The notes beneath the pieces were generated by a model, which searched no databases, was not told the origin of the DNA, and worked only from the letters and a program-made list of their open reading frames with translations. 64,000 nucleotides of DNA, from NCBI GenBank assembly GCA_964017235.1, contig OZ024930.1, forward strand, positions 27,966,614 through 28,030,613, written 5' to 3'. Shown here piece by piece: positions 4,849 through 50,100 of this stretch (the stretch's first letter is position 1; each line of letters starts with the position of its first letter). Source of the DNA: Sabellastarte sp. h YS-2021 (taxonomy: Eukaryota; Annelida; Polychaeta; Sabellida; Sabellidae). A program made the translations under genes and the position numbers.

Positions 4849-4859
4849 GTTTAAAGTGT

Positions 4860-5670: not shown

Positions 5671-5673
5671 AAT

Positions 5674-6728
5674 AGCACCAGAGATGCCCATACCCCACTG
5701 CCTGGGAAAATAGTTTTCAACACCATGAGATATAGAAGTAGTGAAACAGTAAAAAGATCAGGATACTTTCAGAGCAGTTATATACAGGTCCAAATAATGT
5801 TCAAGCACAGAAAATAATGTCTAGGAGAAAGAAAATGTATGTAAAGATGAAGTATTAAAACAAGACAATTCAACAGCAAGATGACAGGATTAATCAGTCG
5901 ACTAAAAATTATGATGCTGTAAAATTTGTTAACAGGAGAATAGGTGTCAATGGAAATAGCACAATGGTGTAAAAGTATATTATGATAATCAGTTGCAGCA
6001 ATCCATATATCTTTGTCATCAGAGACAGCCATAAGCAATGTCCCTACCAAGTATCAACACTTTATAGGTCAACAAAAATTTATAGGTCAACGTCCTCGGG
6101 CAAGGTGACGTTGCACACCTACAACTGAAAACCATTGTCCCTACCAAGTATCAACTTCCTACACCTTACAGTTTCCGAGATTATAGCCCGTACAAGATTT
6201 TTGAGGTCAAGGTCACTATGCCAAGGTCAAAGGTTAAATCAAGGTCACACCATGATGTTGCACACCTACACCCCTTAACCAATGTCCCTACCAAATATCA
6301 CCTTCCTACACCTTACGATTGCAGAGATATATTCCAGACAAGATTTTATAGGTCAAGGTTACTACGGCAAGGTCAAAGGTCAAATCAAGAGTACTCTATG
6401 ATGCTGCACAGCTAAAATCCCCAACCAATGTCCCTACCAAGTATCAACTTTCTACACCTCATGGTTTTCAAGATATAGCCCTGACAAGATTTTATAGGTC
6501 AAGGTAACTACGCCAAGGTCAAAGGTCGAATCAAGGTTACAGCATGACACTGCACACCTACACCCCTCAACTAATGTCCCTACTAAGTATAAACTTCCTA
6601 CACCTTACAGTTTCTGAGATACAGTCGGGACAAACTTTTTCCCGCTGCCCTGCCCGCCCCATCTCCCGCCCATGTGGACACCATGGGGAAAACAATACCA
6701 CAACAGCTCTTAAGGGTTGTGGGGATTA
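5674..6728 (+). mobile_element. Family A element copy 1 (HINE/pearl-like, tandem core)
   Basis: The 5' head begins AGCACCAGAGATGCCCATACCCCAC and continues for about 330 bases. About four divergent core monomers follow (AAGGTCAAAGGTCA ... CCAATGTCCCTACC ... GAGATATAGCC). The 3' tail has a Cys-codon-like CCCGCC run, CACCATGG and a TTAA-centred hairpin. The head word TACCCCAC and the tail word GTGGGG are inverted relatives. This copy also preserves the uninterrupted head sequence around 5999-6010 that is split by an insertion in copy 3. Confidence 0.75.
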
Positions 6729-6733
6729 AAAGG

Positions 6734-7960: not shown

Positions 7961-7971
7961 ACTCTTTTTAC

Positions 7972-11100: not shown

Positions 11101-14100
11101 TAGCTTTCCCCTTACTGTTCAGTACTTTTTAGGTGGTTCATAAACTGGGTTTTTAGTTTACAACAGTAGTCAGAGCATAAGTTTAACAAAAGTGTGATGA
11201 CAAAATTGAAATTTCTGATGATGGATGGAATAATGAATATTAGAAGATTTACTGTACAATGCCAGCAATTTTGGAGCTGTATTTCTACATTTCAAATAGA
11301 TAACTTATTCAAATTGAGACCTTCTTTAATGGTAACTTAATATAACTAATTTACTTGTATGCTCCAATGTTTTTTAAACAAGCAATCAGTGCCCATGAAC
11401 AGATTCTTTGTCAGCTGACTTTGTGGTTTGAGCTTCAGTGTACAAGTATAAAATAGTATCAGAGATGCCCATACCCCACAGCCTGGGAAAATAATTTTCA
11501 ACACCATGAAATATAGAAGTAGTCATGGACTACACCATGTCGATGCACACCTACAACCCCCAACCAATAGTTTCTGAGATACAGCCCGGATGAGATTTTA
11601 TAGGTCAAGGTCACTACAGCAAGGTCAAAGTTCAAATCAAGGTCACACACCTACAATCCCCAACCAAATATCAACTTCCTATACCTTACAGCTTAGCCCA
11701 CACAAGATTTTGTAGGTTAAGGTCCTTACAGCAAGGTTAAAGGTCAAATCAAGGTCACACCATGACGTTTCAGACACCTACAACCCCCAACCAATGTCCC
11801 TACCAAATTTTAACTTCTTACACCGTATGGTTTCCGAGATATAGTCCGGACAAGATTGTAAAGGTGAAGGTCACTATGGCACAGTCAAAGGTCAAATCAA
11901 GGTCAGACCATGACATGGCACATCTACACCTACTAACAAATGCCCCTACCAAGTGTCAACTTCTAAAACCTTACGGTTTCAAAGATATAGCCTGGACAAG
12001 ATTTTATAGGCCAAGGTCACTACGGCACATTCAAAGGACAAATCAAGGTCACATCATGACCCTACACACCTACACCCCCTAACTAATGTCCCTACCAAGT
12101 TTCAACTTCCTACACCTTACAGCTTCCGAGATGTAGCCCAGACAAGATTTTATAGGTCAAGGTCACTACGGCAAGGTCAAAGGTCAAATCAAGGTCAGAC
12201 CATGACGTACACCTACACATCCTAACCAATGTATCTACCAAGTATCAACTTTAAGTATCAACGGTTTCTGAGATACAGCCCGGACAAGATTTTCAAACTC
12301 AAGGTCACTACGACAACATTTTATAGGTCAAGGTCACTACGGCAAGGCCAAATAAAGGTCAGACCGAGACGTTGCACACCTACACATCCTAACCAATGTA
12401 TCTATTAAGTATCAACTTCAAGTATCAACGGTTTCCAAGATATAGCCCGGACAAGACTTTCAAACTCAAGGTCACTACGACAAGATTTTATAGGTCAAGG
12501 TCACTACGGCAAGGTCAAATCAAGGTCAGACCGAAAAGCTGCACACCTACACCTCCTAACCAATGTCCCTACCATGTATCAACTTCCTACACCCTATCAT
12601 TTCCAAGATATAGCCTGGACCAGATTTTATAGACAAGGTCACTACGGCAAGGTCAAAGGTCAAATCAAGGTCTCACTATGATGTTGCACACCTACACCCC
12701 CTAACCAATGTCCCTACCAAGTATCAACTTCCTACACCTTTCAGTTTCTGAGATATAGCCCGGACAAGATCGTATAGGTCAAGGTCACCACAGCAAGGTC
12801 AAAGGTCAAATCAAGGTCACACCATAATGTTGCACATCTACACCCCCTAACCAATGTCCCTACCAAGTATCAACTTCCTACACCTTATGGTTTCCAAGAT
12901 ATAGCCCAGACAAGATTTTATAGGTCAAGGTAACTATGGCAAGGTCAAATCAATGTCAGACCATGACGCTGCACACCTACACCCCCTAACCAATGTCCCT
13001 ACCAAGTATCAACTTCCTACACTTTACCGTTTTCGAGATATAGCCCGGACAAGATTTTATAGCTCAAAGTCACTACGGCAAGGTCAAATCAAGGTCACAC
13101 CATGACATTGCACACCTACACCCCCTGACCAATGTCCCTACCAAGTATCAACTTCCTACACCTTACAGCTTCCGAGATATAGCCCGGGCAAGATTTTGTA
13201 GGTCAAGGTCACTACGGCAAGGTCAAAGGTCAAATCAAGGTCACACCATGACGTTGCACACCTACACATCCTAACCAATGTCCCTACCAGTATCAACTTC
13301 CTACACATTACGGTTTCTGAGATACAGCCCGGACAAACGTTTTCCCGCAGCCCGAACGGCTGCCCGACTGCCCGCCTATCCGGACACCATGGTGAAAACA
13401 ATACCCCGACTCCCCTTAAGGGCTGTGGGGTAAAAAGTAGATACACAGTGACTGCCACACTTTAATACTGATATATGGATTTTGTAAACTTTGAAGTCAA
13501 AAGAAGGGAATTAAAGGAACACGAGTTTTGGGAAGATATATTACTGTTCTAGAATATGTACATGGATGGAGTACTCGCCGCAGGTACACAAAGAAGGTGT
13601 ATTTTATAACTTGATGAATGCATAATATGGATTATAGTGTTGTGAATACACATGCAAACAAGACCACTGCTGAGAATGTTTATCTCCTGCTGGGTATTAA
13701 GCTAAAATGGTGGTAGTGTCACCACAAAACTGGGTTCAAAGCCCAAGAAGCAATAATATGGGAAATAAAAGACTTTTTCAGTATAATAAATTAACTTTGA
13801 AGCAACCTTACTAACCAAACCAGCAGATGTAAAATTTGCCAAAATCATGTTTCACGGTTCTCGAGATGAAATTATTTTCCATTTCCACAAAAATTCAAGA
13901 CCGGTGTCAGAATTCAATTTTTTTTCTAGAAGAAATAGTCTTTACTACCCAGGGTATCCAAAATTTGTTTGAGTTTTACATGCTCCCAACTCTTCAGCAA
14001 TCTTTAGAGGATTTCCCACTTGATCTAAAATTTATCAAATTTAGATGCCTAACTGAAATGGGCAAAAGTGAAAAAATACATACATTTGAAAGAAACCGCA

Positions 14101-17100
14101 TACACACCTAGGCATGATAAAGATCAGTGAAAGTGAACCTTCCCATTTATTTTAATTTTCTTGTATTTGTTACCCAACACATATACAAGACATATGATAC
14201 ACACATGCAATACAAATGCAAGATAAGAGAGAAATCCCTTCAATAGTCAATGAGAAAATTGTGATAAAGTTTTGAAATTTTTACACTTTGGGTGAGGGTA
14301 CCTCTCTTCTAATGGATCTGGGGAACAGACGAACAGGCAAATCTGCATGCCTTGAACACTTTGTCATCCTCGATAAATAAGTTATCTTTTAAAAGTAACA
14401 CCATGTCTCTGGGCCTTGTACTTTTGGAGGAGAAGTTGTTCACGCTAACGCCACAGAGTGATGCCATAATGTCAGCTGACTGATAAGTCAGCTGACATAA
14501 AAATATGGTATTCTCAGAAGTAAGAAAATCTTTTTATGCTTAAAAAAAAACTTGTCGGTTGCAAAATATAACAGAAAATTTTTTTCAAATTAGATCTGAC
14601 AAAGGTAAACCCTTGTGAGTCATCAAATGTGCCCCTAAAATGCCTTTAAATACTACTAACTGGAATAGAGTGAGTGATGTAAATTCGCCAGTTTTTTTTC
14701 ACTTTTGGTTCTGCTACATCAAATCACAATTTTTTTTTCAATTTTTTGTTTTAATAAATATGGCCCATCCCTGCATTATCCAAACCTGGAAAAAAATTAA
14801 CTCATCTGGACATAGGTTCACCAAGAGAGCTGTTATTATTTCATACAAAAATATCTATTATTTATGAAAATGGATCTAAATTCGCTGTTGTTTGAAAAAA
14901 CTGTTTTTCAAGCATAATACCTACGATACTGTGAAAAATTTAAGCTAACTAATTATTTTACATCTTTTCTAGCCAAAAATTATTATTAACATAGATGTAA
15001 ATTTTCAAAAGTTTGTCCCAGAGAAGTTTAAAATGTTGGTTGGTCTTTGTTAAAAATTGCATAATTTACACTCTTTAAAATGATTTGTAAAAATGTATCA
15101 TTCAAAATGTACTTAATAATGTGAAAATATAAAAAGTTGGACTATGAAATCTTGTAGTGCAATAGATAAGTATTTTTTCTATGTTTATGCAACAAAATTA
15201 AGACATGTTTTCCATATTTGTGCTGTTAAGTTGACAAAAACCAAAAAGTGGCGAATTTACATCCACTGGCGAATTTACATCACTTGCTCTAAATGATATT
15301 TCCACTATTTCAACAAAAACAACCAGAATTTGTGACCTTTCTAAAGAGCATACAAGTGTATGATTGTGACTCCACTTTTTTATCACAAAAAAGGGGTGTC
15401 CTGGTTTGAAGACACAGTGAATGATTTGCAAGTGGATAAGTGAGTAGACCTTCTTATTGTTGTCTGTGCTAGACAAAGGTGCAAGTTTCCAATACATGGC
15501 CTTGTAATAAAATGTCAGGAAGATTCTGTTGGTTTAACACATTACAAACAAATGACATCTCTGCAGCCCCCACTGCTGGAAATTTCATACACATTTTGTT
15601 GTTTAAAGACACAGTGATCACCTGTTTATGGAAAGTCAGCACAAAAGAGTGATGTAATCTTTCTACATTCAGTTTTGTACTGAATGTAAAGAAGTTTACT
15701 TCTTGGCAAAGTATTAGTTGTCATCATTAGTAAAATTTGTATATTCATGAAAAGGGCATAGATGATGGAGAAAATGGCAGCCAAAGTGATGATGCAAATT
15801 AAGGATGGGTCAGTTCCAAAAAAGTGTACATTCTGGGACTCAGCGTTTCAGTATACCCCAAACAAACATCAGAGTTTGTGTTAATGCTGTATTTGCGCAT
15901 TATTTCAATTAAAATCCACCAACAAACACAAAGATTTTTTACTGAACGTGTAGATATGCAAGCAATATATATAACACTGAAGATAAGGTTTATATTTTTT
16001 AATTAAACGGTTGAGCGATTTCCTAGCAAATTTTTTTACGTCCGCCATTGTTATGCGAGATTTCAATGGAGACTAGAACTAGACGTGATGAGATCCTTTA
16101 GAAACGGTAAGTTAGTGTTGGTATTGTGCACTAGCAAATCTACTCAAAACGTTTTACATCAAAAGAAAGTGTAACCTCTGCACGTAAACAATCAAACCAG
16201 AACAATGAATTTTTATATACTAAATCTCCGAAACTCTTGATATTAGATCCCGGAAAATATAAGCTGTAACATTCGAAAATATTTGTAGGGGATGTAATAA
16301 AAAACATATATCTCTGGAACTACTCAAAGAATTTTTGTAAAATAAAAAGCAACACAAACTACAAATATTTGACTTTCAAACAGTATAAGCATAATATTTG
16401 TAGCTTAAATAAAATAATCATACACAACAAATTTCACTTAAATTCCACTAAAAAGAAGTTTGTTTACTGGGGTTCAGCCTTTTCAAATATTTTAAAAACT
16501 ACTTTATTGAAGGATATATATATATATATATCAGTAGAAATAAAATTGAAGAGTGCTTCTGTTCGTATTTTTTTTTGCATTTAAATTCATCCAAAAATAA
16601 GGGAGAAAAAATAGCATCAGAGATGCTCATACCCCACAGCCTGGGGAAATAGTTTTTAACATCATGACATATAGAAGTAGTGAAACAGTACAAAGACTGG
16701 CATACTTTCAGTGCAGTGTCACTTATATAAATGTCCAAATGATGTTTAAGTAGAGAAAATAACATCTAAGAGAAAGAAAATGTATGTACATATAAAGTAC
16801 TAAAACAAGACAATTAAATAGCAAGATGACAGCATTAATGAGTAAACTAAAAATGTGAAGCTGTAAAAGTTATTAACTGAAGAATAGCTGTCAATGGAAA
16901 TAGCATAATTATGTAAAAGTGCACATAATAATCAGTTGCAGCAATCCATATACAGTGTAACCCACTTATCCCGATCTCGGAAATATCGACTTCCTGTTTA
17001 TCTCAAGGTTACACCCTCAGTCCCAACTCATTTAAACTAAAATATATAAGAAAATTAAAGGTTATTTCGATGTGAAATGCTAGTATTTGCGTTTATATCG

Positions 17101-20100
17101 AGGCTATTTGCCATTTTACACACCATGTTTTCTTTATATTTAGTCCGGTGGAAAGTGTTGATTGTAAGAAAAACAAACAAACAAACGCATCTGGCGTGTG
17201 TTACAAAAGGCAATTTACCCAGTAAAGCTGAAAGTCAAACAATAATGTGACCATCTCTGAAGATTACATCTACTAGCAATACTTTGAATGAGAAGCCAAT
17301 TTGTTTTTTTTCCTCCCCATTTCTCTCCGTACTGTAAACTTATTTACATAGAGATTATAGGAGCGATTATGGTGTAGGTTTCACTTGTGATGCATGTTTT
17401 CTTGGATATTCATGAAGGAATGCATTAAATTATTATTTACTAGTTCATTTACTATATACCCCACCGACATTGCTTAAAACAACATCTTCCAGCTATTTGG
17501 TTAATACCATTCATTATCGCCCATACACTCGGTAGTTGCTTTGAAAAGTTTAGTCTCTCAAAGGCTTGAATGGTTATTTCGACTTTTGGATAAGTCGAGG
17601 TTATTGGAATGGTCCCATAAAATTGGAGATAATCAGGTTAGACTGTATCTTATTCATAAGAGAAAGATGTCTCAAATATGGCAGATCAACACACTCTGTC
17701 AGAGCAAAAAGGTCACACCATGATGCACACATACATTTACATACACCCCCTAACCAATATCCCTACTCAGTGTCAACCTTCTACACCTTATGGAATCCAA
17801 GAAATAGTCCAGTCAAGATTTTAAAACTCATGTTTACTATGACAAGGTCAGAGGTCAAATCAAGGTCACAGAATGATGTTTCACACCTACAAGCCATAAC
17901 CAATATCCCTACCAAGTATCAGCTTCCTGCACCTTACAGTTTCTGAGATATGATCTGGACAAGATTGTATAGGTCAAGGTCACAACAGCAAGGTCAAAAG
18001 TCAAATCAAGGTCACTCTATGATGTTGCACACCTACACCCCCTAACCAATGTCCCTATCAAGTTTCAACTTCCTACACCTTACAGTTTCCGAGATATAGC
18101 CCGGACAAGATTTTATAGGTCAAGGTCACTACAGCAAGGTCAAAGGTCAAATCAAGGTCACACCATAACGTTGCACATCTACACCCTCTAACCAATGTCC
18201 ATACCAAGTATCAACTTCCTGCACCTTACGGTTTCTGAGATATAGCCCATACAAGATTTTATAGGTCAAGGTCACTACGACAAGGTCAAAGATCAAATCA
18301 AGGTCACACTATGATGCTGCACACCTACACCCCCTAACCAATGTCCCTACCGGGTATCAACTTCCAGTACCCTACAGTTTCTGAGACATAGGCCAGACAA
18401 GAGTTTAAAAATCAAGGTCACTGCAGCATGGTCACCAAATTTTAACTTCTTACACCTTATGGTTTCCGAGATATAGCCCGGACAAGATTTTATAGGTCAA
18501 GGCAACTATGGCAAGGTCAAAGGTCAAATCAATGTCACACAACGATGCTGCACATTTACACCCCCTAATCAATGTCCCTACCAAGTATCAACTTCCTACA
18601 CCTTACAGTTTCTGAGATATAGCCCGGACAAAATTTTCAAACTCAAGGTCACTACAGCAAGGTCAAAGGTCAAATCAAGGTCAGACCATGACGTTGCACA
18701 CCTGCACCCCATAACCAATGTCCCTACCACATATCAACTTCCTAAACCTTACGGTTTCTGAGATACAGCCCGGGCAAACTTTTTCCTGCCGCCTGCCCGC
18801 TTGCCCATCCGGACACCATGGGTGAAAACAATACCCTGACAGCCTTTAAGGGCTGTGGGGCAAAAAATTGTTGAAAGTCAAGCTTATTTTTTGATTATTT
18901 CTTCACTCTGATGTATATAATATTTATTCAGATAACACTTCCCCCAATAAAACTAGACCTAGCGCACCAGAGAACCGATGCAAGTTGTATCCACCAGAAA
19001 GAAAACTCACCAAAGACAATCAACCATCACTTAACCTTGAAGGAGGAGCCCAAGGTGAAATCTAACCATTTCAAAAGATTCTTAGCCCATGATTTCCTAC
19101 AGGTTGGTGTGACACTGCAAACCTTTAGGAACAAGAATAAGTGAGTTATAAGCACTTTCAATTTTGGCTATCCTCATTGGACCTTGAAGAAGGGGCCAAA
19201 GATCAAATCTGATCACATCAAAAGATTCCTAGCCCATGATTTCCTATAGGATGGTTTCACATTACAAACCTCTAGGACCAAGAAAAAGCGATTTATAAGC
19301 AATTTTAGATTTTCCTATCCTCGTTTGACCTTGAAGGAGGGGCCCAAGGGCAAATCTGACAACATCAAAAGATCCCAGCCCAAGATAGGTTGATTTCACA
19401 TTGCAAACCTCTAGGACCAACAATAAGTGAGTTAGAAGCACTTTTAAGTTTGGATATCCTCATTTGACCTTCTAAGAGGGGTCCAAGGTAAAATCCGACA
19501 TCAAAAGATTCCTAGCCCATGATTTTTATAGGTTAGTTTCACATTGCAAACCTCTAGGACCAAGAATAAGCGAGTTATAAGCACTTTTAAATTTGGCTAT
19601 CCTCGTTTGACCTTGAGGGGGGGGGGGGGGGGGGGGGCAAGGTCAAATCTCACCACATCAGAAGATTCCAAGTCCATGATTTCCTATAGGTTGGTTTCAC
19701 ATTGCAAACCTCTAGGATCAATAATAAGCGAGATATAGGCACTTTTAAAGTCCGCTAAATGGGGTACTTTGGCACTCTTTGGTGGATGACCTTGAATTAA
19801 GAGCTTCAAGATCAAATGTCTGCAAGGTTGTAAAGGACATGCATATCTGTTGTACATAACACCTAAGAAGAGATTCAACCTTCTACCAGCCAGTAGAAAA
19901 ATCTGACCACATTAAAAGATTCTCAGCCCATGATTTCCTATAGGTTGGCTTCACATACTAAACCTGTAGCACCAAGAATAATCAAGTTATAAGCACTTTT
20001 AGGTTTGGCTATCCTCATCTGACCTTGAAAGAGGAGCCCAAGGTCAAATCCAACCACACCAAAAGATTCCCAGCCCATGATTTGCTATAGGTTGGTTTAC

Positions 20101-29100: not shown

Positions 29101-32100
29101 CTCTCTTTGATTATTTTTGTCTCTCCTTTATTTGTGACTAAAATTTAATGAAAATAAAAACAGCGAGCTTTGTCCACAGCAAACCCAGCTTGTAGATATA
29201 ACTAGAGTAACATGAAATGGAAATTACAAAATTTCAGACTTACAAAGTTGACATTGGAAAACATACAAAAATACTGTCATGGCAACAGTTGTTGCAAAAG
29301 ATGATGGCTGAAACATGAATAACACCAAGTGGTCAATCAGGAAATTAACCACCATTTTAAATGTATGAGGTGATACAAAACCTGTGACCTTGATGGGATT
29401 AACTGTTGAACACTGACAATGTACAAGTAAAAAAAATGGAAAAAAAATAAAATATTCCCCAAACCTAATCAGCTAGTATAAATTTATGCATAGATTGGGA
29501 CTGTATGGAACCCATAACATTTCAAGTCCAAATCAAGAAAAATAGCATCAGAGATGCCCGTACCTCACAGCCTAGGGAAATATATTTAATAACATGAGAT
29601 AAAGAAGTACTGTATCAGTACAAAGTTCAGGATACTTTCAGTCTCAGAGCACTGTCAGTTATATAAAGGCCCAAACAATGTTTAAACAGAGAAAATAATG
29701 TCTAAGAGAAAGATAATGCATGTAAAGATGAAGTATTAAAACAACACAATAACAAGATGACAGCATTAATCAGTAAACTAAACATTACGACACTCTTTAT
29801 CTACATTTGGCATGGCCGAATTATGGTTTGGATGTTTTGAATATTACCATGCATACAGAAGTGGTAATACATTCAATGAATGCTTATGTGTGGTGTTGGA
29901 GCAAAATCTGTGTCTCACTTGATGAAATTCCATCTGTTTCAATGGGAAGTTGTAAAAGTAAAATTCTTAATGAATTCTAATATGACCTTAACAGTGCTTA
30001 ATCTGCATCAAAAGACAGACCGAAGGTGCAACAAGATTTTAAAGGTCAAGGTCACTACGACAAGGTCAAAGGTCAAATCAAGGTCACACTATGATGCTGT
30101 ACACCTACAACCCCTAACCAATGTCCCTACCAAGTATCAACTTCCTACACCTTACGGTTTCCGAGATATAGCTCAGACAAGATTTTATAAGTAAAGGTCA
30201 CTACAGCAAGGTCAAAGGTCAAATCAAGGTCAGACCATGACATTGGACACTTACACCCCCTAACCAATGTCCCTACCAAGTATTAACTTCCTACACCTTA
30301 CAGTTTCTGAGATATAGCCGACAAGATTTTATAGGTCAAGGTCACTACAGCAAGGTCAAAGGTCACATCAAAGTCAGACCATGACGTTGCACACCTACAC
30401 CCCCTAACCAATGTCCCTAGTAAGTATCAACTTCCTACACCTTACGGTTTCCGAGATATAACCCGGACAAGATTTTATAGGTCAAGGTTAAATCAAGGTC
30501 ACACCATGACATTGCACACCTACACCCCCTAACCAATGTCCCTACCAAGTATCAACTTCCTACACCTTACGGTTTCTGAGATATAGCCCGGACAAGATTT
30601 TCAAACTCAAGGTCACTACAGCAAGGTCAAATCAAGGTCAGACCATGACGTTGCACAATTACACATCCTAACCAATGTCCCTACCAAGTATCAACTTCCT
30701 GCACCTTACGGTTTCTCACATACAGCCCGGACCAACTTTTTCCCGCCGCCCGCCCATCCGGACACCATGGGTGAAAACAATACCCCGACAGCCCTTAAGG
30801 GCTGTGGGGTAAACAGTGTTATCATGGCAACAGTTGTTACCAGATAATTGCAGATATTGACTAAAATTTAATCATTTCTAGTTCTTCTTGGGTTAACATA
30901 TCCTAAAAATTTGTTAAAAATTAATGTACTGATTTGAACTCTCAGGCCCCCACAAGTTCTATGCCCATTACCGTCATCACCTGGCAGTGTTCCTATGAAA
31001 ACCCCTGGGACTAATAATAAAGGACTTAAAGGGACTTCCTATGTGACATGAAATTAGGAAACAAAGCTCAAATCGGACACAGAAGAGAGTTTTAGAGCCC
31101 ATAGTTTTCTTTTAGTAGTTTTAAATTAAAAACCCACAGGGAAATAATTTAAAAGTAGACACAAGGAGTTTTTGAAAGTTGACCCCATTTAATTATGAAG
31201 TACGAGTCGAATATAACCAAACATAAAGATTTACAGCCCATGATTTTCTATTATTTCTTTTTGATATTCTAAAGCCGCAGGTCATCCAGCTAATGAGGGA
31301 GAAATGATGCATTCTTATTCAATCCTGATTGACCTTGAGACAGAGGTCAAAGGTCTGATGAACAAAGGTTCTAAAGATTAAGGATCTCTGTATCAATACT
31401 TCTTAAGCTCCAATGTAGCTTAGAATGACTTGTATTTAATTACAGGCAAAAATATGCTAAAACATTGTCTGGGTCTTGGCACCAACTGGGTAACCTGAAG
31501 CAAGAAGAATCAAGGTAAAATTTATCCATATGAAAAGAGGAGATATATATCCATTTTACATATAAACCAAAGCTTGACCCAAGCTACACAGAATGGGACG
31601 GCGGTCACTGATTTTAAATGGAAGGTCTTGGTCAGTTATTTTGTCTATTTGTCACATGGTAGATTTTCAGGATTTAACTGGCTTACTATAAAATATACAG
31701 ACTTTTTGATGAAAGAGATTGACAATGTGCTATTTTTCTATATTTATATAGTTAACTCCGTAAAACTAAAATCTCCAATAATGATAAAGTTTACATCTAG
31801 TTATGGCTGACTTCTATTTATTCCTGCAAAGATATACCATTTTCTGGTACTGGGGTACATTTACAACCAACATCAACTTACACTGGTACTTCTTATTAAG
31901 AGTCTATTGTATATTAGAGATTCTAGTTATACAGAGTCGCCTTAAATATGAACCCCTTACCTTGTACTCTAACATATGGTCAATAAACGTCTTCAGAGCA
32001 AATGTTTCCATTAACACAACTGGAACACCCATTGTCAGCTTAATGATCATTAGTGTGAAACCATAGGAGTGAGACAGAGGCTGGTAAAGAATTGACACAC

Positions 32101-35100
32101 CGCGAGGTAAATTGCCAAGCTCTGGTGAACTGAAAACAGACTTCATAGGGTCACAAGCAAAGAAGCACCCACAGCAGCACAGTCAACTGAAAATCTTATA
32201 CTGATACAACCTTAACAAATAAATTTGCAGGCTTCTGGGGACTGTGTATTATGAATCTGTGTATTATATTTGTCAAAAATAGCATCAGAGATGCCCGTAC
32301 CCCACAGCCTAGGGAAATATTTTCAACACCATGAGATACAGAAGTACTGTATCAGTACAAACTTCAGGATACTTTCAGAGCACTGTCAGTTATATAAAGG
32401 TCCAAACAATGTTTAAATGGAGAAATAATGTTTAAAAGAAAGATCATGCATATAAAGATGAAGTATTAAAACAAGATAATTCAATAACAAGATGACAGCA
32501 TTAATCAGCAAACTAAAATTCAACCCTCTTTATCTACATCTGCAAGGCCCGAATTATGGTTTAGATGGTTTGAATATTACCATGCATACAGAAGTGGTAA
32601 TACATTTAATGAATGCTTATGTGTGGTGTTGGAGCAAAATCTGTGGCTCACTTGATGAAATTCTATCTCTTACAATGGGAAGTTATGAAAGTAAAATTCT
32701 TAATAAATTCTAATATGACTTTAATAGTGCTTAATCTGCATCAAAAGAGAGACCCAAAGGTGCAACAAGATTTTATAGGTCAAGGTCACTACAGCAAGGT
32801 CAAAGGTCAAATTAAGGTGACACCATGATAATACACACCTATAGCCCCTAACCAATGTCCCTAGCAAGTATCAACTTCCTCAACCTTACGGTTTCCAAGA
32901 TATAGCCAGGACAAGATTTTATAGGTCAAGGTCACTACGCCAAGGTCAAAGGTCAAATCAAGGTCAGATCATGACGTTGCACAACTACATCCACTAACCA
33001 ATGTCCCTACCAAGTATCAACTTCCTACACCTTACGGTTTCCGAGATATAGTCCGGACAACATTTTATAGGTCAAGGTCACTACGGCAAGGTCAAAGGTC
33101 AAATCAAGGTCAGACCATGACATTGCACACCTACACACCCTAACCAATATCCCTACCAAGTATCAACTTTCTACACCTTACGGTTTCCGAGATATAGCCC
33201 GGACAAGATTTTATAGGTTAAGGCCACTACGACAAGGTCAAAGGTCAAATCAAGGTCAGACCATAACACTGCACACCTACACCCCCTAGCAAATGTCCCC
33301 ACCAAATATCAACTTCCTACACCATATGGTTTCCGAGATATAGCCCGGACAAGATTTTATAGGTCAAGGTCACTACGGCAAGGTCAAATCAAGGTCACAC
33401 CATGACGTTGCACACCTACACCCCCTAACCAATGTCCCTACCAAATATCAACTTCCTACACATTACAGTTTCCGATATATAGCCTGGACAAGATTTTATA
33501 GGTCAAGGTCACTACGGCAAGGTCAAAGGTCAAATCAAGGTCAGACCATGACGTTGCACACCTACACCCCCTAACCCATATCCCTACCAAGTATCAACTT
33601 CCTATACCTTACGGTTTCCGAGATATAGCCCGGACAAGATTTTATAGGTCAAGGTCACTACAGCAAGGTCAAAGGTCAAATCAAGGTCAGACCATGACGT
33701 TGCACAACTACACCCCCTAACCAATGTCCCTACCAAGTATCAACTTCCTACACCTTACGGTTTCTGAGATATAGCCCGGACAAGATTTTCAAACTCAAGG
33801 TCACTACGGCAAGGTCAAAGGTCAAATCAAGGTCAGACCATGACGTTGCACACCTACACCCCCTAACCAATGTCCCTACCAAGTATCAACTTCCTACACC
33901 TTACGGTTTCTGAGATACAGCCCGGACAAACTATTTCCCGCCGCCCGCCCACCCGCCCGCCCGGACGTCCGCCCGCCTGCCCGCCCGCTCGCCCATCCGG
34001 ACACCATGGGTGAAAACAATACCCCGACAGCCCTTAAGGGCTGTGGGGTAAAAAGGGTACCAATGCGTAGTTCAAACATGGATGGTCTAACAGTAACAAA
34101 GCTATAAGTAAAAACATAATAAGTGTCAATCTGCTTGTACTAAAACCCAATAAAATTTTTGGTTTGATACACTATATGCAAAAATGTGAAAGAAAGTGTC
34201 AATGCATAGTTCACAGATGGTCTAAAAGTGACAAAGCTACAACTACATAAAAGACACAATAACACTTCAAACTGGTTTTACTAAAAACAAACAATATTTT
34301 GGTTTGATGCACTACACAGTGTTTTAATATTCTCAATATATTGATATTTACTTGATATTCAATTTTAAATTAAAAGTGACTTCTTCTGATTCTAGTTTTA
34401 ATTGGACGACCACTCCTATTTAAATTTGTAATCAAAGAAACGTCCGGCCACATTATAAGACAATATCACTTTAAATTCATCTTAACTCTATGCTCACTAT
34501 GTACTCATTCATGTCTGCTATAATAGAAGAGACACTGAGCCACTGTACCTCTCAAATATTTTGATAAAATACTACTTGAAATATTCTCAAATACTATAGA
34601 ATTAAATTGAAAATTTTAATTACTTAAATGTAGCTCTTATAAGCTACAAGTTTACCATGTGGGACTGAATGCCGTTCTCGGATGGCCACCAGGCCCGGCC
34701 AACGTCAAAGAAAAAAAGACATTTATAGTTGGCCGTTGCCTCAGGTTGTCGTCACGTGACCTTCCCCATTTGTCTTCTCCTTTCTTGTTGAAATTTTAAC
34801 CCATACCCCCTCAGCAGTACTACAGCGGGGAGGTCGGGTGGGACTCTTCTAAGTCCCACATGGCAAGCTTGTAGCTTATAAAAGCTACATTTAAGTAATT
34901 ATACTTTTCAAATTTATTACACTACAATAGCCTACCATGTGGGACTGAATGCTGAATGCAACTGCCCGGTGGCGGGATTACAGCTGAGACTGGAAGATAT
35001 GTCTGTTTTTCTTAGATTTTGATAGAATAAGTAGATAAGTAGTTGAACTGTACTTGTACAGTTGAATGGGTCCTGTAGTACATGGAGATATTACGCTGAG

Positions 35101-38100
35101 TATAAATACAAATACAATGAGGATAGAAAATACCAGTCTGAGTCCCATTTACAGTGCCCCAAACCTGGGTTGGGCATGTAAGAAGCCAAAAACCCTAAAA
35201 ATAATTGACAGTGCTAATAGACTGTCTGGGTGTTTTGACAGGAGGAGGTGTAACTGAAGTACACTTAGGTGGGGTAAAGCCAAGGGCCATCACGGAAGGA
35301 GTCTGAACCCAAGGCTCAGAGGTACCAAAAATATTGCCACCTAAAGGAGATTAATGACATTAAGGTCCGAAATACATTATACAATTACAGCTAAAGCTAA
35401 AAGAAAATGAAGAACATAAAGACCTTACCAGAAACACCCTGATGAGGTAAACTGATAACGAGACCCTGGGATTAGACTCCTGAAGACTTAGATGTAGTGG
35501 ATGTGCCCCCCCCCCCCCCTTCTTTTCTTTCCGAGGATGACAGTTCTGAGGGGAAGGGTCTAGGACCTCTGTGCCGCTACTACTGGCCCCAGATACATAT
35601 TGTTGTCGTTGTCTGACCAAGTAAGGTCTTTTAGATAGAAATTTGTAAATGTGTTGTGAGCCTTCCAGTGACAGGCTTGCTAGTGTCATGCGCTACTCAT
35701 GTTAAATTTATGACTGACTTGATTTGTACACAACTTCAGTTAAGTGGCCTCATTACTGTGATACCTACACTAATGTCTTATTCTTAGTATAGATTAGATT
35801 GTGAAAAAGTTCAGTATTATTTACCTCCACATTAGGGTCTGTCCCACTAAAGCCCTGTGTGAAATCTCCACTGCTTTACATTTGCCAGTTGTGCCACTGG
35901 ATAGGAGAATTACAGCCATGTCTGAGGGTACAGGCTTTCTCTGGGGTTTTACAAAATCCAGTGCAGAATTTGATGGGTCAGCAAATGATAGGTGAGAGGC
36001 TACACATGTCCTGCTGACTACAATCTGAAACACACATATCAGAGTAAATTTGTGAAACGAGTTATAACACTTCATGCATTAAATTAATGCAGATTTTTGC
36101 AGCAGTGGGAGACGGGCGTTTAATTGATTGTAATAAATCAAATAAAGCACTAATACCTTAATTTTGGTGTACCTAGGATTTAACAGGTCGTTTTCCTTGG
36201 GTTTTTATTGCATTTCAGCCTTCATTGCATTTAACAATGAAGGCTGGTTTTAATAGCATGATTTATATCTGGTTTTGGATCATTTTTTCTTATTATCTTT
36301 GTTCATTTGATGAGAGTTGGGGAGGGGCAACTATGGGCAAAACAACGAGCGGTACCGGTATATGTACAAAAGCTTGATCAGAGATTATTGTGTGAGCAGA
36401 AACTTTTGCCAGATTTACAGATTTTTGCGGTATTTCACTACAGGGTTCACCTACAGTACTAAGGCATCAAGCCATCATTATTTTGTCCATTTTTCTTGGA
36501 CGTTGGCTAGTGGTCCTACGATTAGACGGAAAATCGATTCATCGTCTATTCAAAACTTTCGATGTAGAAAATCGATTCTCATTTTAAGAATCGATTGTGA
36601 ATCGAAAGTAAGACTTATAAACCACCTAATTTTCCCTTTTTCTACAGATGTTTAACATTTTATTTTCGTAACATTTGTTTACATTATCTGCCATGTTTCT
36701 TTCACTGGTATCTACTTCCTGTTGGTTACAACTAAAACTCAAAATTTCTGTAGGTATTTAGATCTTTTAATATAATAAACTAAGTTCAACCTAAATTAAA
36801 TTTAACTTTCACTGCTTCACACACAACATGTATACTCCCTATAAATGGGGAATAACAACCTTGGCCATAAATCAAGTGGAGAGAGATCACACTACTGTAA
36901 TACTTCAGCAGTCTGCCATGAATATTTTTGACAAATTTTGTTGAACAAGAAAACTAAAATGTTTACTACATTGCCATACTTAGAATTTTACAGTATCTAA
37001 GAAATTATAATTATATGAAATGAATAGGTCATGAAGATCTGCTTAAAAAAGGAAATTCATGGAATATTGTTTTCAGGATGAGAGAAATTTAACAGAATAA
37101 TAGACAAATGCTTTACAGTAACATAAACAGGCAGAGAGAGAGTGAGGGGGATCTGACTTTGTTGAAGCTGGTGGGAGATACTTAGCCTTGCCACAGGCAT
37201 TTATATGTATAAAGAAGGCACAACTGTTTGACTGCATTATAAGTATTTTTCATAATGTTCTCATACACTTACTTAGACTAGCTTGCTGAGGAGACTTCCA
37301 GACTAGAAAGGCCTTTGATACAGTGTGCATTATGGCAAAAATATTTCACGTTTGCATTATGGTTCAGACAGCCTGGAAGGCCAGGCTAGGAGATACTTTC
37401 AGTTTGAACTACACCTGTGTTGCTAACTGGGGAAGGTTTTAACTCAGGACACCCATGCACTGAAACACATACAAGTGCTAAATACACTTGATAAAATAAC
37501 TGCACCATCCATTTATCAATGATACACAACTATTTATGTCATATATATGCTGTTTTGAGAAATTTTCATCATATTATTCCTGAGATAAAAGTCAGATTTT
37601 CCAGACCCCATCCAATACACATAAACTTGAGTGACAATGCTGAAATACATGTTCACTTGTGCCAAACTGTTTCATATAACCTAGTATATATTACAAAACA
37701 TCAATATTGACCAGAAACAATAAAAGTCACTCTTCCATTTGATTAATGAAAATAGCATGTCTTGGAAAAGTGTCCTGAGTTAAAAATGGAAGGAAAATTC
37801 CATGAACACATGTCTATGTATTGTTTAGTTCCCAAAGAAGCATTTTATTCAGGATAATTTTCAGAAGCTGCTTGGCAGTCACTGTTCTTGACATATGATA
37901 ATGATAAGCAGATATTCTATTCTTCTTTGTTGCATATATACAAAGTGTCCTGAGTTCACAACACGGGTGTACCACATGGTGATGTTGAACAAAAGGGGTT
38001 GAAATAGACTTGCACCAAGTCTTTGTATTTCTCATCCCACTAAAAAAACGATTATAATCGATAATCGATTGCTCAGAGTTACCGATTAATCGATTCTGAT

Positions 38101-41100
38101 TTTTTAGACCGATTCCTAACACTAACGTTGGCAAATTGCCTGCGGCCAGCCGAGTAAGCATTCAGTTCCACATGGTAAGCTATTGTAGCGCAATAAAATC
38201 TTCATTTTAAAGAAATTTACCAGAATTTATTTTTCAGCATTGGCTAGCTTTTTCTTAAGATATTAATACAGATTTAAAATTTCACTAAGAGTTAATTTTT
38301 CACAATCCAATTTTATTAGCTTAAACAGGTTAAGATTAATGTCAAGTGGAATTTACTACTTATACAGTTTTCTTATGATGTACTGGCTGCATTAGTGAAA
38401 AGACAACTTAGTAATAACTAGTGTTAGGAATCGGTCTAAAAAATCAGAATCGATTAATCGGTAACTCTGAGCAATCGATTATAAATTATCGTTTTTCTGC
38501 TTGCTTTGTAAGAAAGACAGAATATTCTTTTTTACCAAATATAATAACAGTAGTCTTCCGATAGGTCAGTGGTGAAAAAAATCTAGGTTATTTGTTTACA
38601 TTTTGGGGTAGGGAAGGGGGTATGTTAGGAAACCAGTAGATTGAACAGTCAACAAGTATGTGTATCAGCAATAATATAATAATCTATTAAGGTGGCCTTA
38701 ACAGTTACAAAATAATATTTATTTTCATTCTCCCTTTTCATCAGCTAAATCATTTACAGTGTTTGAATGTAACATCAGCAGATTAGCAACCAATCATGCT
38801 TAAAATAAACAATATTTCAACCCTAGACTTTCTTCAAGTCCTTTTTTCTAAGGTATTATATGAGGACTGTATGACTTTATACTAGAATGTGGGGCTGACA
38901 AAAGTACTGTTTCAGCATAGAGAAGGATTTTTCCCTCCTTAAGTGGATGTATAATGTTTTCATCTATGTCAGATTTAGTGGGATGAGAAATACAAAGACT
39001 TGGTGCAAGTCTATTTCAACCCCTTTTGTTCAACATCACCATGTGGTACACCCGTGTTGTGAACTCAGGACACTTTGTATATATGCAACAAAGAAGAATA
39101 GAATATCTGCTTATCATTATCATATGTCAAGAACAGTGACTGCCAAGCAGCTTCTGAAAATTATCCTGAATAAAATGCTTCTTTGGGAACTAAACAATAC
39201 ATAGACATGTGTTCATGGAATTTTCCTTCCATTTTTAACTCAGGACACTTTTCCAAGACATGCTATTTTCATTAATCAAATGGAAGAGTGACTTTTATTG
39301 TTTCTGGTCAATATTGATGTTTTGTAATATATACTAGGTTATATGAAACAGTTTGGCACAAGTGAACATGTATTTCAGCATTGTCACTCAAGTTTATGTG
39401 TATTGGATGGGGTCTGGAAAATCTGACTTTTATCTCAGGAATAATATGATGAAAATTTCTCAAAACAGCATATATATGACATAAATAGTTGTGTATCATT
39501 GATAAATGGATGGTGCAGTTATTTTATCAAGTGTATTTAGCACTTGTATGTGTTTCAGTGCATGGGTGTCCTGAGTTAAAACCTTCCCCAGTTAGCAACA
39601 CAGGTGTAGTTCAAACTGAAAGTATCTCCTAGCCTGGCCTTCCAGGCTGTCTGAACCATAATGCAAACGTGAAATATTTTTGCCATAATGCACACTGTAT
39701 CAAAGGCCTTTCTAGTCTGGAAGTCTCCTCAGCAAGCTAGTCTAAGTAAGTGTATGAGAACATTATGAAAAATACTTATAATGCAGTCAAACAGTTGTGC
39801 CTTCTTTATACATATAAATGCCTGTGGCAAGGCTAAGTATCTCCCACCAGCTTCAACAAAGTCAGATCCCCCTCACTCTCTCTCTGCCTGTTTATGTTAC
39901 TGTAAAGCATTTGTCTATTATTCTGTTAAATTTCTCTCATCCTGAAAACAATATTCCATGAATTTCCTTTTTTAAGCAGATCTTCATGACCTATTCATTT
40001 CATATAATTATAATTTCTTAGATACTGTAAAATTCTAAGTATGGCAATGTAGTAAACATTTTAGTTTTCTTGTTCAACAAAATTTGTCAAAAATATTCAT
40101 GGCAGACTGCTGAAGTATTACAGTAGTGTGATCTCTCTCCACTTGATTTATGGCCAAGGTTGTTATTCCCCATTTATAGGGAGTATACATGTTGTGTGTG
40201 AAGCAGTGAAAGTTAAATTTAATTTAGGTTGAACTTAGTTTATTGTATTAAAAGATCTAAATACCTACAGAAATTTTGAGTTTTAGTTGTAACCAACAGG
40301 AAGTAGATACCAGTGAAAGAAACATGGCAGATAATGTAAACAAATGTTACGAAAATAAAATGTTAAACATCTGTAGAAAAAGGGAAAATTAGGTTTTTTA
40401 TAAGTCTTACTTTCGATTCACAATCGATTCTTAAAATGAGAATCGATTTTCTACATCGAAAGTTTTAAATAGACGATGAATCGATTTTCCGTCTAATCGT
40501 AGGACCACTAGTAATAACCATACAGAATATTGCGTCACCTTTTGAAGGCCGAGTCCTGTCAGTGCATCTTGTACAACTTTAGCATTGCCATCATCACAGA
40601 CTATCAGATCACAGGAAACCAGCTTTAGTACTGAGATCATTTCCCCTGAAACAAGTTGACACAGCTTGTCTTTCACAATCAGACAATCAGATAACTGTAA
40701 TCACAATGACATAACTGTAATCGTTACACCAATGTTCATCATCAGCGAGGAAACATTTCCTGACAGAATATTTTTAAATGCGGGATAATTAACCGAATTC
40801 ACATCCTTTTTTCATGGTTGGATGAAGCAACAAATTTAAAATAGACTAAATGCAAAATGTCAACTGGTTTGCTTGTCTCTCCTATCACCAATGAAAAGCT
40901 CAATACCTGTATTCCATTGACAACAGTTATCCAGTATAACCCACAAGTATGTGTTAAATCACTAGAATACAGCCCTAATTGTAATACATGAGGCCTTCTT
41001 ACCTGGCCTGTTCCGTTACTTAACTTAAATATCTTGACAAATAGATAATGTAATGCTACTGTGGATTTTATTTTACAAATTTTGTGTAACAAACAATTTT

Positions 41101-44100
41101 GCAAAAGTATTTTCATTCTAGCTTATTTAGTGACTGACATTTCCCTAACTGATATACAGAATATCTGGGATAACTATTTACCAACGACCTGGAGGCCTGC
41201 CACAGGGAGTAAGGTGCCATGACAGAGATTTGCCATTTTAAATGGTTATTTGCGACACCATATATCAGTCCATATCTGGGATCGAAACAATGTCCTCTGT
41301 GTTCCTAGGTGAGACCCTGGACCAGTGGCAGATGGTTTCATATGCCTTAATCTGAAACCAACTTTACAGGCCTAATACCTCCAATATGTCTTATGAGAGA
41401 GGGATCATAAGCTAAAAATTGAAGCTTTTATTTTCACTGGTCACCCTTACAAAGTGTAAGCTCGTGGATGATTTTTCTTACACAACTGCTGATTTTTAAA
41501 AATATTTTATTAATTATGAAACCATCACATATGTATCACTTTAAAAGACCACAACTCAGTCAGTAAATAAAATATCAAGTTGTGAAAATATACTGTTGTG
41601 TATAACTGGTGTTATTTTACTTATTATTGAAGAAAAATGGTGGTTCATAAAATAAATCCCAAATCCATCAATCTATCCATTTATTGTAGAAATAAAGTCC
41701 GAGGTTTTGTGATTTATAACCCCATATAATTCACAAATTTCAGGCGAATAACGGACGAGCCGGAAATTTGACAACTGAGGACTTTATTTCTATTATAAAG
41801 ACCGGTTTAATTTATTAATCCATAAATATTATTGTAAATATGTTTCTAAACACACCTAGTTGTCGCACTATATTTTGTCTGTATCATTTGACTCTCTATT
41901 ATCGGCGATCATCCAGTTATTGCCTCAGATAATTGTACGCAAAAATATGCGCACTGCATTGTTTTGTGTGGTCTGCACACTACTGGTCTTTATAATTATT
42001 CATATATACAACATTTGGTATTATAGTATATTACAATTACATGACAAAAAACACCAATAAAATAGATTTTTAAATTTTTAAATCAGATTTTTTGATTCAT
42101 CATCTTGTTACAATGTATTTTTTTATGTGATTCACTCGTGTTTCTTTGCTACCATATAGCTGCAACAGTGCTAACGTATCTTGTTGCTAATATTAGAAGT
42201 CCTGTAACCTGCCTTAAAACTATATATTAACACATGGTACAGTGTTATATTTTCAGGGTTTTAGCTTATAAAACCAGCTGCATAATATTCAAAAGTGTTA
42301 CATTATGTTTCATAGCTGTTTTATGATGCAACATTTATAACATAACATGTATCTAACAAATGTATGTTAGCCTTTTCTGTGTTTCAGTCTCTGAATAATT
42401 CTGAGATTAATTTATTTTTGTAGTCAATACCATGTTTATTGTTGTACTTCCATGATGCTGGAACTGCATCTGTTGGGGAAAATCAGACATAATTTCTTAT
42501 TTGCACTCTGATTCATCCAGTCTTTCCTACCAGAATGTACTTAATCAACCATAACACCCAAATAGTTAACTACTTTAGGTTTACTTATTCTGAATCTGTA
42601 AGATCTTACAGTAAACCTCAGTCATACAAAGCTTATCTTTACTGAAATTGCATAAACTTTGTGGTAATTTTAAATCAAACATTGCTCCTCCCAAGTAGTA
42701 ACATAACCTCATAATGGAAGCTTAACATGTGCTCTGACATCATATATTTCTGCGGTACATGTTGTACATACCGATAACCAGACCACTGCCATGGCATTTA
42801 TCTCCCACAGGGTATTAAGCAGAAATGGAAGTAGTTTGATCACAAAAAGGGGTTCAAAGGCCAAAGAGCCAATGATAAGGATGATAAAAGGCCTTATCAA
42901 TACAAGTATCCAACTAAACATTGAAGAAGGGGTCAAAGATCAAATTTGACACTTGCAAAACATTTGCAGGACATAATTTCCTACAGTTTGTTTTTACATT
43001 TGAAGTTTCAAAACTAACCAGAACTGCATAAATTGATGCAGTGCATTCCCTGACAGGACAGTGTATGATCTGTCAAATGAAAAATTCAGCTATTCATAAC
43101 TGAGATATTTTTTATTTCGGTCAAAATACAACATGGCAGACAGAAGTGGAAAAAGTAAAACATTTCTCAGAGGCACTATATCCAGGGTCTCTGGTAGAGA
43201 TGTCACTACTCCAAATATTTCACGTCGGCTAATCGCTAAGTCCTTTTCGTGTCAGCACAGAATAACCGTCAAATTTATAAAACTACAAAAAATCTTAAGC
43301 CTGGTATTCTAAAGGACAACAAAAATGATAAATATGTGTGAAAATGTATGTCCAAAATCTGTAAAAATTATTAAATTTGCCATTTTTCTGTGACTTCTGG
43401 TGCATTTTTCTTATACAGAAAGTGGGCGATATAAGAGGTAAATGGTACCCTTTTGGTTTAACGTAGATGCATAAACAGAACAGAAAACGTGGCTGTTGTT
43501 GGATTTTAACTTATTTTATTCAACAATATTTGAAGGATTCAAACCTTCTACCATCTTTTACTGCATTGAACAAAATTAAATATTTATAACATAATACCCT
43601 ATTCAATGGACAACTGCTTTACACGTTTGAACAGTAGTGTTTTGATTTTCTAGATCCCTCGACTTTTTGCTTGATATATTTCCCACATCGCTTTGTGAAC
43701 TACACATTCTCATATAATTTTGTGCCTGCAGACTCCAAGAAAATGAGTGTCCTAGAAGCAACACTGAGCCCAGACAAGATTTTATTGGTCAAGGTTAGTA
43801 CGGCATGGTCAGAGGTCAAATCTAGGTTACACCATGACATTGCATACTGACACCCCTAACCAATGTCCCTACCAAGTATCAACTTCCTACACCTTATAGT
43901 TTCTGAGATTTGCAAATTTAATAAGTAAATTAAATTTTTATAAGTTAATACCCTATCCAATGGACAATTGCTAATCCAGTCGGCGCAGACCGGCCCGCCA
44001 AACGCCAGAAAAAGACGTCCTGTGTCTCCACCGGCTGGCGGTCCGTAGTACTGTGCACTCCCCAGATGGCGCCTCGTACTTCCTTCCTGTCTAGACAACC

Positions 44101-47100: not shown

Positions 47101-50100
47101 AAGGCAGGGACTGGAATCACAGTAGACGTGAGTTCTGAAGAACGCACTTCCGACCTTCCTGGTCGGTGAAAACACGTGACCTGCTTCGTGATTATTTGGA
47201 AGGACACACGATTGGCTAACTGGAGATGACGTCAGTATTCACGTTCTTTGTGTGATGCCTTACCGGCAACTTTACAGTCCACAAAACCCCACTACCGACA
47301 ATAAGGTCGGGTCTGCAAAGCAGGGACTGGAATCACAGTAGACGTGAGTTCTGAAAGAACGCACTTCCGATCTTCCTGGTCGGTGAAAACACGTGACCTG
47401 CTTCGTGATTAGTCGGAAGGACACGCGATTGACTGACTGGATATGACGTCAGAGGTTGCGTTCTTTTGAGCTGGCCAGTCGGCTGATACTTAAAAGCAGA
47501 GAAGCCTGGACCAGTGCCCTCTGAAGATGAAAGTCCTGGTCGATGGCGGTCTGAAGTCGGTTGCTCAGCCGGCTGTGCACTCAAACCAGTGTCCTGGCCA
47601 TCCACTGCCCTTACTACCGACACAAGTGCCGGGTCCACAAGGGTGGGACTGAGAGTGATCAAGATGACATTCCTTCTATGTAAATACTAGTTGAGGTCGG
47701 CTGAATACGAGCTTGCCGGTCGACTAATGCATTAAAGCAAAGATGTCTGGACCAGTGCGCTCTGAAGAAATCTGAAGAATTCATCTCTTGCTTCTGATGA
47801 AAAAACACTAAATACTCGAGCTAGGCTGGTGTGACTGATGCTATACAGCAGAGAAGTCTGTACCAGTGTGCTCTGAAGATGAAGAATGCATCTTGCTGGG
47901 AATTCCTTCTTAACAGTGTTCAAAACTACGTAGACTGAAGTTTCCCGTGATTTCTATTGTAGCACTAGAAAAGATGTTTCTATGGTGATATTAGCTGGAA
48001 GGTTACAGCAGGTACATTCAAACAAAAACACGGATAAAAATACCTTGTAAGTATATCCATTATATTTCTAAAAATTGTCGATCTGCCCCTAACAACACAA
48101 TTGTTGAATGGGAGGAAACTAGAAAATGGCTGCCTTCATATTTCTCGTAGATTACTGCCCTATCGTCAACACTAAATTGAGTCAGCTAGGGAGCATTTCC
48201 AGCAGACTTATAAATGTATATCCGTGCTTGATTAGTAGATAACACTTCTACACTGAAAATATCCACATATAAGGTTGAAAATCCGTCATAATGCACACTT
48301 TTCCTTAAATAAATCTGGAGATGTTGAAAACACGTCTGCACAGTACACGCGCCAAACGAAAAAGATGCTATGACGTCAGGGGAGTGCACAGTACTACGGA
48401 CCGGCCAGCCGGTGGAGACACAGGAAGTCTTTTTCCGGCGTTTGGCGGGCCGGTCTGTGCCGACCGGATTAGCAATTGTCCATTGGATAGGATGTATTAA
48501 CGCAATAAAAATAGCCCTGACAAGATTTTAAGCTCAAGGTCACTGCAGCAAGGTCAAATCAGGTCACACCATGACGTTGCACACTTACAACCCCTAACCA
48601 ATGTCTCTACCAAGTATCACCTACCTACACCTTATGGTTTCTGAGATACAGCCGGACAAGAATTTAGAGGTCAAGGTCACTACGGCAAGGTCAAAGGTGA
48701 AATCAAGGTCACACCATGACGTTGCACACCTACACCCCCTAACCAATATCCCTACCAAATATCAACTTCTTACACCTTACGGTTTCCGAGATATAGCAAA
48801 GACAAGATTTCAAACTCAAGGTCATTACGGCAAGGTCAAAGGTCAAATCAAGGTCACACCATGACGTTGCACACCTCCTAACCAATGTCCCTACCAAGTA
48901 TCAACTTCCTACACTTTACAGTTTCTGAGATACAGCCCGGACAAACTGTTTCTAACCGCCCGCCAGCCCGCCCACCCACCCCTCCAGACACCATGGGTGA
49001 AAACAATACCCCAACAGCCCTTAAGGGCTGTGGGGTAAAAACAGCATCAGATATGCAAGATCAAAGGTCAAATCAAGGTCACAACATGACGTTTTACATC
49101 TATACACCCCAGCCAATATCCCTACCAGGTATCAACTTCCTACACCTTACGGTTTCTGAGATATAGCTCGGACAAGATTTTATAGGTCAGGGTCACTACG
49201 GCAAGGTCAAAGGTCAAATTAAGGCCACACCATGACGTTGCACCCCTACACCCCCTAACTAATGTCCCTACAAAGTATCAACTTCCAACACTTTACGGTT
49301 TCTGAGATATGGCCTGGATTTTCAAATTCAAGATCACTACGGCAAAGTCAAAGGTCAAATCAAGGTCAGACCATGATGTTGCACACCTACACCCCCTAAC
49401 TAATGTCCCTACCAAGTATAACTTCCTACACCTTACGGTTTTTGAGATACTGGCCGGACAAACTTTTTCCCACCGCCTGCCCATCTGGAGACCAAGGGTG
49501 AAAACAATACCCCGACAGCCCATAAGGGCTGTGGGGTAAAAAGTGCTGCCAGAATGACCTATCTGAGCCTTTATAGGCCGGGACTGATAATTTCAGGCAA
49601 CAAATGGTTCTCCATAATATGTGCAAGTTCAACACTGAAAAAAACAATGATAGGTTTTACCTGAAGTTAACAGTGGGTTCACACAAACAAGATGGCCACC
49701 AAGCCTCCAGACTGCCAAACATGTGAGAATGAACTCCAAGGATGTCCGCATGAATAGCATCACTGGATGATTTGTGTGCAAACCTCGGGACTGAAAGGAT
49801 GTTGCTACATGGTGTGAGGCATTAAGAAGCTGTGTACATGTGATGTGATCACAAGACTCAGAACGTAACTGAAAAAGAAGAAAGTAGTCGAACAAGATCA
49901 AGATAGTGTATATAGAAGTGACATGCACATGTATTTCAAAACATGACCCAGCATCAAACCTTTAACAAGCAGATTGCAATATAATGGATTAAGTTACAAA
50001 CTTTAATGAGTAAGGAAATTACCAAGTATTTAGCATACGTGGTACCTTTTAAATTATTACAGGTGAAATGCAATTACTGGAAACAATTTGAAACTAGAGG

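Follow-up and report, generated by a model that had tools for sequence, protein, structure and literature searches.

Why do satellite arrays beside an acyl-CoA-synthetase-like gene carry dense, exact copies of a nuclear-receptor consensus site? The question arises in the 64,000 nucleotides of Sabellastarte DNA analysed here (the window, meaning this whole stretch), located at G000:C4:27966614-28030613, for which a sequence-only reading had reported about twenty perfect DR1 copies over seven elements of a satellite family, here called family A. We counted 20 exact copies of the DR1 word AGGTCAAAGGTCA, all on the + strand and all within seven family A elements, E1 to E7 (Table 1), in agreement with that estimate. 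Only 3 such words appeared in total when the window was shuffled 200 times with a first-order Markov model, and genome-wide the word occurs 82,135 times, compared to 218 times for a reversed-word control. The chance that the motif is an artefact of low complexity or coincidence is practically nil on these counts, and we rejected that explanation. The extended half-site TCAAGGTCA, which had also been noticed, was indeed present 70 times in the window when both strands were counted, with 57 occurrences on the + strand inside E1 to E7 (2, 17, 10, 7, 14, 5 and 2, respectively).

The DR1 is embedded in a larger group of half-sites. The consensus monomer has five AGGTCA half-sites within about 45 bp, at spacings that run, in order, 0, 8, 1 and 5. 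Direct AGGTCA pairs numbered 19, 21, 23 and 25 in the window at spacings of 0, 1, 5 and 8, compared to 0, 0, 1, 0 and 0 at spacings of 2, 3, 4, 6 and 7. In 16 random stretches totalling 160 kb, the same four favoured spacings gave 14, 14, 13 and 16 pairs, and no pairs were present at the remaining spacings up to 8. Since spacings 0, 5 and 8 equal spacing 1 in frequency, a design specific to DR1 was rejected. DR1 is one reading of this sequence among several, and "half-site cluster" is the better name for the monomer.

Tandem Repeats Finder called 146-bp arrays at the sites that had been named from the letters. A monomer profile search returned 97 hits over the window and the fetched stretches, 47 of them in the window; E1 to E7 contain 46 of these 47, of which 38 are near full length. 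The seven elements have 20 exact words for 46 hits, and to say that every monomer contains a DR1 was too broad. The loss of one 7-bp unit from the short monomers was borne out: among 18 window monomers with flanking context, two units were present in 14 and one unit in four. The 139-bp monomers, which have one AAGGTCA unit instead of two, would most simply have arisen via contraction between the two units. Recombination or slippage between the two 7-bp words may have produced the one-unit form, which could then have spread within arrays without any need for selection. Alternatively, one unit is possibly the older state. Genome-wide, the one-unit context occurs 10,799 times, compared to 50,711 for a wider pattern covering one and two units. 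The three-unit context was found nine times, and one-unit monomers are roughly a thousand times commoner than three-unit monomers, as judged by search patterns that differ in length and in left context.

The arrays lie inside larger elements whose boundaries are sharp, with identity falling to chance level there. Mean pairwise identity among 13 left ends, one of which is the reverse reading of a two-element junction (L014), was 0.69-0.70 inside the element and 0.28 outside; among 12 right ends, one of which is a reverse-read left end (L009), it was 0.76 inside and 0.28 outside. The 12-bp subterminal inverted repeat (subTIR) TACCCCACAGCC is the same word at both element ends, inverted. Both copies were found within the allowed mismatches in E2 to E5, while the right end of E1 has decayed and E6 and E7 are without a left copy. 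The 5' end can form a hairpin built on the subTIR word itself (-13 kcal/mol; none of 200 shuffles folded as well), and the 3' end carries a small palindrome, GCATC-TCT-GATGC, that is separate from the subTIR and outside it (3 of 200 shuffles folded as well). The CCCG-rich segment that separates the array from the end of E5 is a microsatellite; it was called by program in E5 only, and C-rich stretches like it are visible by eye in other copies. The element ends border A/T runs, within which the exact insertion base is not fixable from these ends. In L014, at positions 1009-1060, two family A elements stand head to tail with nothing between them, an arrangement that looks like insertion of one element at its neighbour's terminus.

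Table 1. Positions of family A elements, a lone monomer and adenylate-forming-type reading frames in the window.
Feature	Position	Strand	Structure or match	Exact DR1 words
E1, HINE-like	5669..6727	-	hairpin at left end, subTIR at 5691 (one mismatch); 5 monomer hits; right end decayed, near 6721	1
E2	11450..13436	-	left subTIR at 11472; 14 monomer hits; right subTIR at 13421	4
E3	16608..18867	-	left subTIR at 16630; 8 monomer hits from 17705; right subTIR at 18851, one mismatch	3
E4	29539..30813	-	left subTIR at 29561, one mismatch; 5 monomers; right subTIR at 30800	3
E5	32276..34054	-	left subTIR at 32298; 8 monomers; CCCG-rich segment 33937-33994; right subTIR at 34039	7
E6	48519..49041	-	left subTIR not found at <=1 mismatch; 3 monomers; right subTIR at 49026	1
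E7, adjoins E6 directly	49042..49542	-	hairpin-like remnant at left end, subTIR absent there; 3 monomer hits; right subTIR at 49527	1
Single diverged family A monomer	43773..43909	+	monomer profile	0
Open frame, exon of host gene	49629-49961	-	AMP-binding (PF00501), E 2.8e-11	
Open frame, possibly later exon of same gene	21876-22178	-	weak AMP-binding (profile 317-356), E 4e-4, below Pfam cut-off	
Open frame, possible exon	31904-32182	-	weak likeness to adenylate-forming enzymes (ancestral luciferase chain), E 0.0026; without Pfam match	

This architecture matches the plan described for HINEs, the non-autonomous relatives of Helentrons. The available part of one account (PMC4067079) gives subTIRs, a 3' stem loop and, optionally, a microsatellite and central repeats for DINE-1 and other HINEs and Helentrons, all of which family A shares. 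Descriptions available in part also put HINE subTIRs at 11-15 bp and at both ends, set the microsatellite close to the 5' end, report an inverted repeat beside the 5' subTIR that is present in DINE-1 and Cg_HINE and absent in mite HINEs, and state that HINEs insert between two T residues and duplicate no target sequence. We used this plan to set the 5' to 3' direction of E1 to E7, which is the minus strand; the DR1 words read on the + strand. Cg_HINE of the Pacific oyster, as presented in the available portion of its description (Vojvoda Zeljko et al. 2020, PMC7492417), is likewise dispersed. It has inverted subTIRs and a 3' palindrome, an inverted repeat stands next to its 5' subTIR, and it contains a short microsatellite and a central array resembling satDNA; its T-rich insertion sites can be likened to those of the family A elements. 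Its consensus monomers measure 138-181 bp, and for one cluster the table lists 147 bp and the text 146 bp. The likeness is in architecture, and the same portion of that paper mentions no receptor motifs, which family A does have. The genome contains 24 matches to the Rep domain PF14214; three of these 24 loci, all belonging to one family, were searched over 8-10 kb each for an autonomous partner, and family A termini were not found in them, a point against the HINE-type explanation.

One rival explanation is that the arrays are enhancers of the acyl-CoA-synthetase-like gene, selected as fatty-acid-linked receptor targets. The arrays had been placed in introns of such a gene, and this holds for part of the set: E4 to E7 sit between two AMP-binding frames, one of which scores below the cut-off, and are therefore intronic if both frames belong to one gene, while E1 to E3 fall outside this interval, past the last exon that we found. 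A short-pattern search of the minus strand for more adenylation motifs returned only 21876-22178 again and one unconvincing short frame, and a longer-frame search returned one unconvincing frame. The position of the four elements would suit an enhancer, as would the DR1 density of 312 per Mb in the window (20 in 64 kb), compared to a genome mean of 46 per Mb. Against this, the same words occur throughout the genome without strand bias (41,011 and 41,124 on the two strands, which led us to reject a strand preference), and dense arrays are present in random stretches too: the random sample held 14 DR1 words in 160 kb (87.5 per Mb), 13 of them in two of the 16 stretches. Nearly all DR1 words from the window and the fetched stretches (42 of 43, in a small sample that includes six stretches fetched by DR1 match) fall in family A monomers. 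Because the words ride on a dispersed mobile element, on both strands and on many contigs, they are nothing special to the AMP-binding gene, and we regard selection as enhancers of that gene as very improbable.

Dispersal of the element was also apparent from its termini. A search with the 84-bp right end gave 863 candidates, of which the best 40, spread over nine contigs, were 99-100% identical, 26 of them without a mismatch in the aligned part. We infer that some element copies moved not long ago; the 40 are the best matches picked, and as such they are uninformative on mean age.

We were also curious whether the motif has been held more tightly than the rest of the monomer, a comparison that the sequence-only reading had proposed. 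The conservation set comprised 84 monomers, that is, the 97 hits minus eight from two overlapping loci and minus five retrieved through their own DR1. Mean identity was 0.953 in the DR1 columns and 0.927 in non-CpG columns. Of 146 thirteen-column windows, 15 lay above the DR1 by raw identity, 19 when CpG columns were left out, and 20 after correction for base class; 13 columns drawn at random reached the DR1 value in 9.7% of 20,000 draws (p about 0.10). These figures amount to a weak signal at most, and they come from an alignment in which the program can set the 7-base gap in the motif's favour. The suggestion that the DR1 outlasts divergence of its monomer was weakly borne out: among the 18 of 74 monomers that make up the most diverged quarter, identity was 0.906 inside the motif and 0.862 outside. 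An exact DR1 stood at its 13 columns in 36 of 76 monomers from the window and the fetched stretches, and 34 of 134 monomer words exceeded it in exact survival (median word, 0.354).

Genome word counts served as a second control. Three ordinary 13-mers of the monomer occurred 92,041, 75,242 and 72,802 times genome-wide (reversed controls: 60, 32 and 32), so that the DR1 count falls between the first and the second. After division by the survival that base make-up would predict, the counts became 212,000 for DR1 and 258,000, 225,000 and 181,000 for the controls. Two units are kept by 79% of context-matched monomers; scaling for this raised the DR1 count to about 104,000, above all three controls, and with both the unit scaling and the base correction it reached 270,000, which is 4% over the best control and well over the other two. 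Strong constraint is not supported by the column identities. We conclude that constraint on the DR1 is weak or absent.

The explanation that we favour, at a probability of roughly 0.8, is that the receptor sites are passenger motifs amplified by a HINE-type, non-autonomous rolling-circle element. The arrays would be the central tandem repeats of this Helentron-associated element, which was copied and dispersed together with its array, probably by means of a Helentron partner, and the arrays may also have expanded and contracted locally. A founder monomer would have carried the five AGGTCA half-sites by chance, and copying would then have multiplied them genome-wide. Host receptors could bind some copies in open chromatin. 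Since the motif decays only slightly more slowly than the remainder of the monomer, retention would be possible without any binding, and the half-sites may simply have hitch-hiked.

Proteins able to read such sites are likely to be available in the host, as the genome has 83 matches to the zf-C4 domain. COUP-TF, RXR, NR2C and HNF4 receptors bind DR1, and NR5A and ERR bind TCAAGGTCA. We fetched 12 zf-C4 exons and searched six of the domains against the PDB. The closest matches were COUP-TF1 (L028, E 3e-42), RXR (L032, E 3e-29), NR2C2 (L030, E 2e-27, and L033, E 7e-23) and NR5A2 (L031, E 1e-21), and a sixth domain (L029) had no clear class, with USP/RXR as its best match. Part of the receptor match named in the sequence-only reading was thus recovered: the consensus is exact and COUP-TF-, RXR-, NR2C- and NR5A-like domains are encoded, while none of the six domains searched was identified as HNF4 or ERR. 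Given an exact consensus and receptor domains of fitting classes, receptor binding at the family A words is plausible on sequence grounds. A seeming family A type element end lies beside the exon for the NR5A-like DNA-binding domain of L031 (G000:C11:59983935-59984314), as read by eye from the translation.

A second 146-bp satellite family, family B, was called by Tandem Repeats Finder at 19027-20882 and 26935-27400 of the window. It carries TGACCTTGAAGGAGGGGCCCAAGGTCA, in which everted AGGTCA half-sites stand 15 bp apart within a 27-bp inverted repeat. With up to two mismatches, TGACCTTGAAGGAGGGGCCCAAGGTCA occurs 56,354 + 57,395 = 113,749 times genome-wide (control, 0). Families A and B have in common an 11-base AAGGTCAAATC block with a local score of 24, compared to a maximum of 23 in 200 shuffles, and with the half-sites masked the two do not align beyond chance (39 of 200 shuffles were as good or better). 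The half-site blocks of family B are a little high in conservation, with 11 of 137 and 22 of 136 windows scoring above them across 30 monomers. This conservation and the shared block are the best reason to keep a functional reading alive.

One such reading is that the half-sites serve the element itself, in that a germline or embryonic host receptor of the NR5A, COUP-TF or RXR type binds the arrays and opens chromatin or drives transcription, thereby aiding transposition, so that the block was kept in two families. It would fit the mildly above-average half-site blocks of families A and B, the scaled DR1 count, the shared AAGGTCAAATC block and the receptor domains encoded in the genome. The excess of conservation in family A is small and not significant, however, and a shared block could equally come from ancient homology or exchange. 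Moreover, AGGTCA was present in only 4 of 16 tandem-family clusters sampled from the window and the 16 random stretches, which also led us to reject the idea that the half-site is general to tandem families. We consider this service to the element unlikely. A broader proposal would be that families A (DR0/DR1/DR5 clusters) and B (everted half-sites) kept their half-sites since receptor binding helps repeats to persist or spread, and that the resulting lattice of roughly 200,000 putative sites (82,135 DR1 and 113,749 family B) buffers or rewires receptor signalling; this we hold to be distinctly doubtful.

For the passenger explanation, the closest parallel is the dispersal of DR2 and HNF4alpha sites by Alu. 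Alu is a SINE and not a tandem-array element, whereas a single family A element in the window has up to seven DR1 words at monomer spacing. In the available parts of the two reports concerned, 108,582 consensus DR2 are counted in the human genome, 90% of them in Alu (PMC1785376), and Alu is described as also spreading HNF4alpha sites (PMC3252374). In both systems, a receptor consensus has reached about 10^5 copies through a mobile repeat; the difference is that binding was demonstrated by ChIP at some Alu copies, while the family A sites are sequence matches. In D. miranda, the male-specific lethal (dosage compensation) complex has binding sites that come from DINE-1-like copies, according to the available part of PMC4067079, whereas the putative binders in family A are nuclear receptors, suggested by sequence. 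A literature search, with most subscription papers outside its scope, found no publication that links Helentrons to nuclear receptors. Should even a small share of the copies be bound by receptors, family A would be a rolling-circle counterpart of Alu-driven expansion of receptor sites, and its natural series of one, two and rarely three units, in tens of thousands of copies, could be used to ask whether such sites act as enhancers, as decoys or have no role. If the copies are unbound, they would show clearly how misleading a strong motif match within a satellite can be.

Several further features of the window were observed. A block like ACGGTTTCCGAGATATA is common to several otherwise different satellites, at 50409, 51934-53281 and 57894 and in the family A arrays; the pattern has 30 matches in the window, which suggests a common module. 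A tRNA scan of the window returned none. Frames resembling reverse transcriptase (PF00078, E 8e-18) and, weakly, RNase H at 2380-4875 and 61363-63757 on the minus strand are retroelement remains, and the frame at 61363-62106 looks recombinase-like by eye, with no Pfam match. Finally, an identical protein stretch is encoded in opposite orientation at 37814-38161 (-) and 38899-39204 (+), an inverted duplication with copies roughly 1 kb apart.
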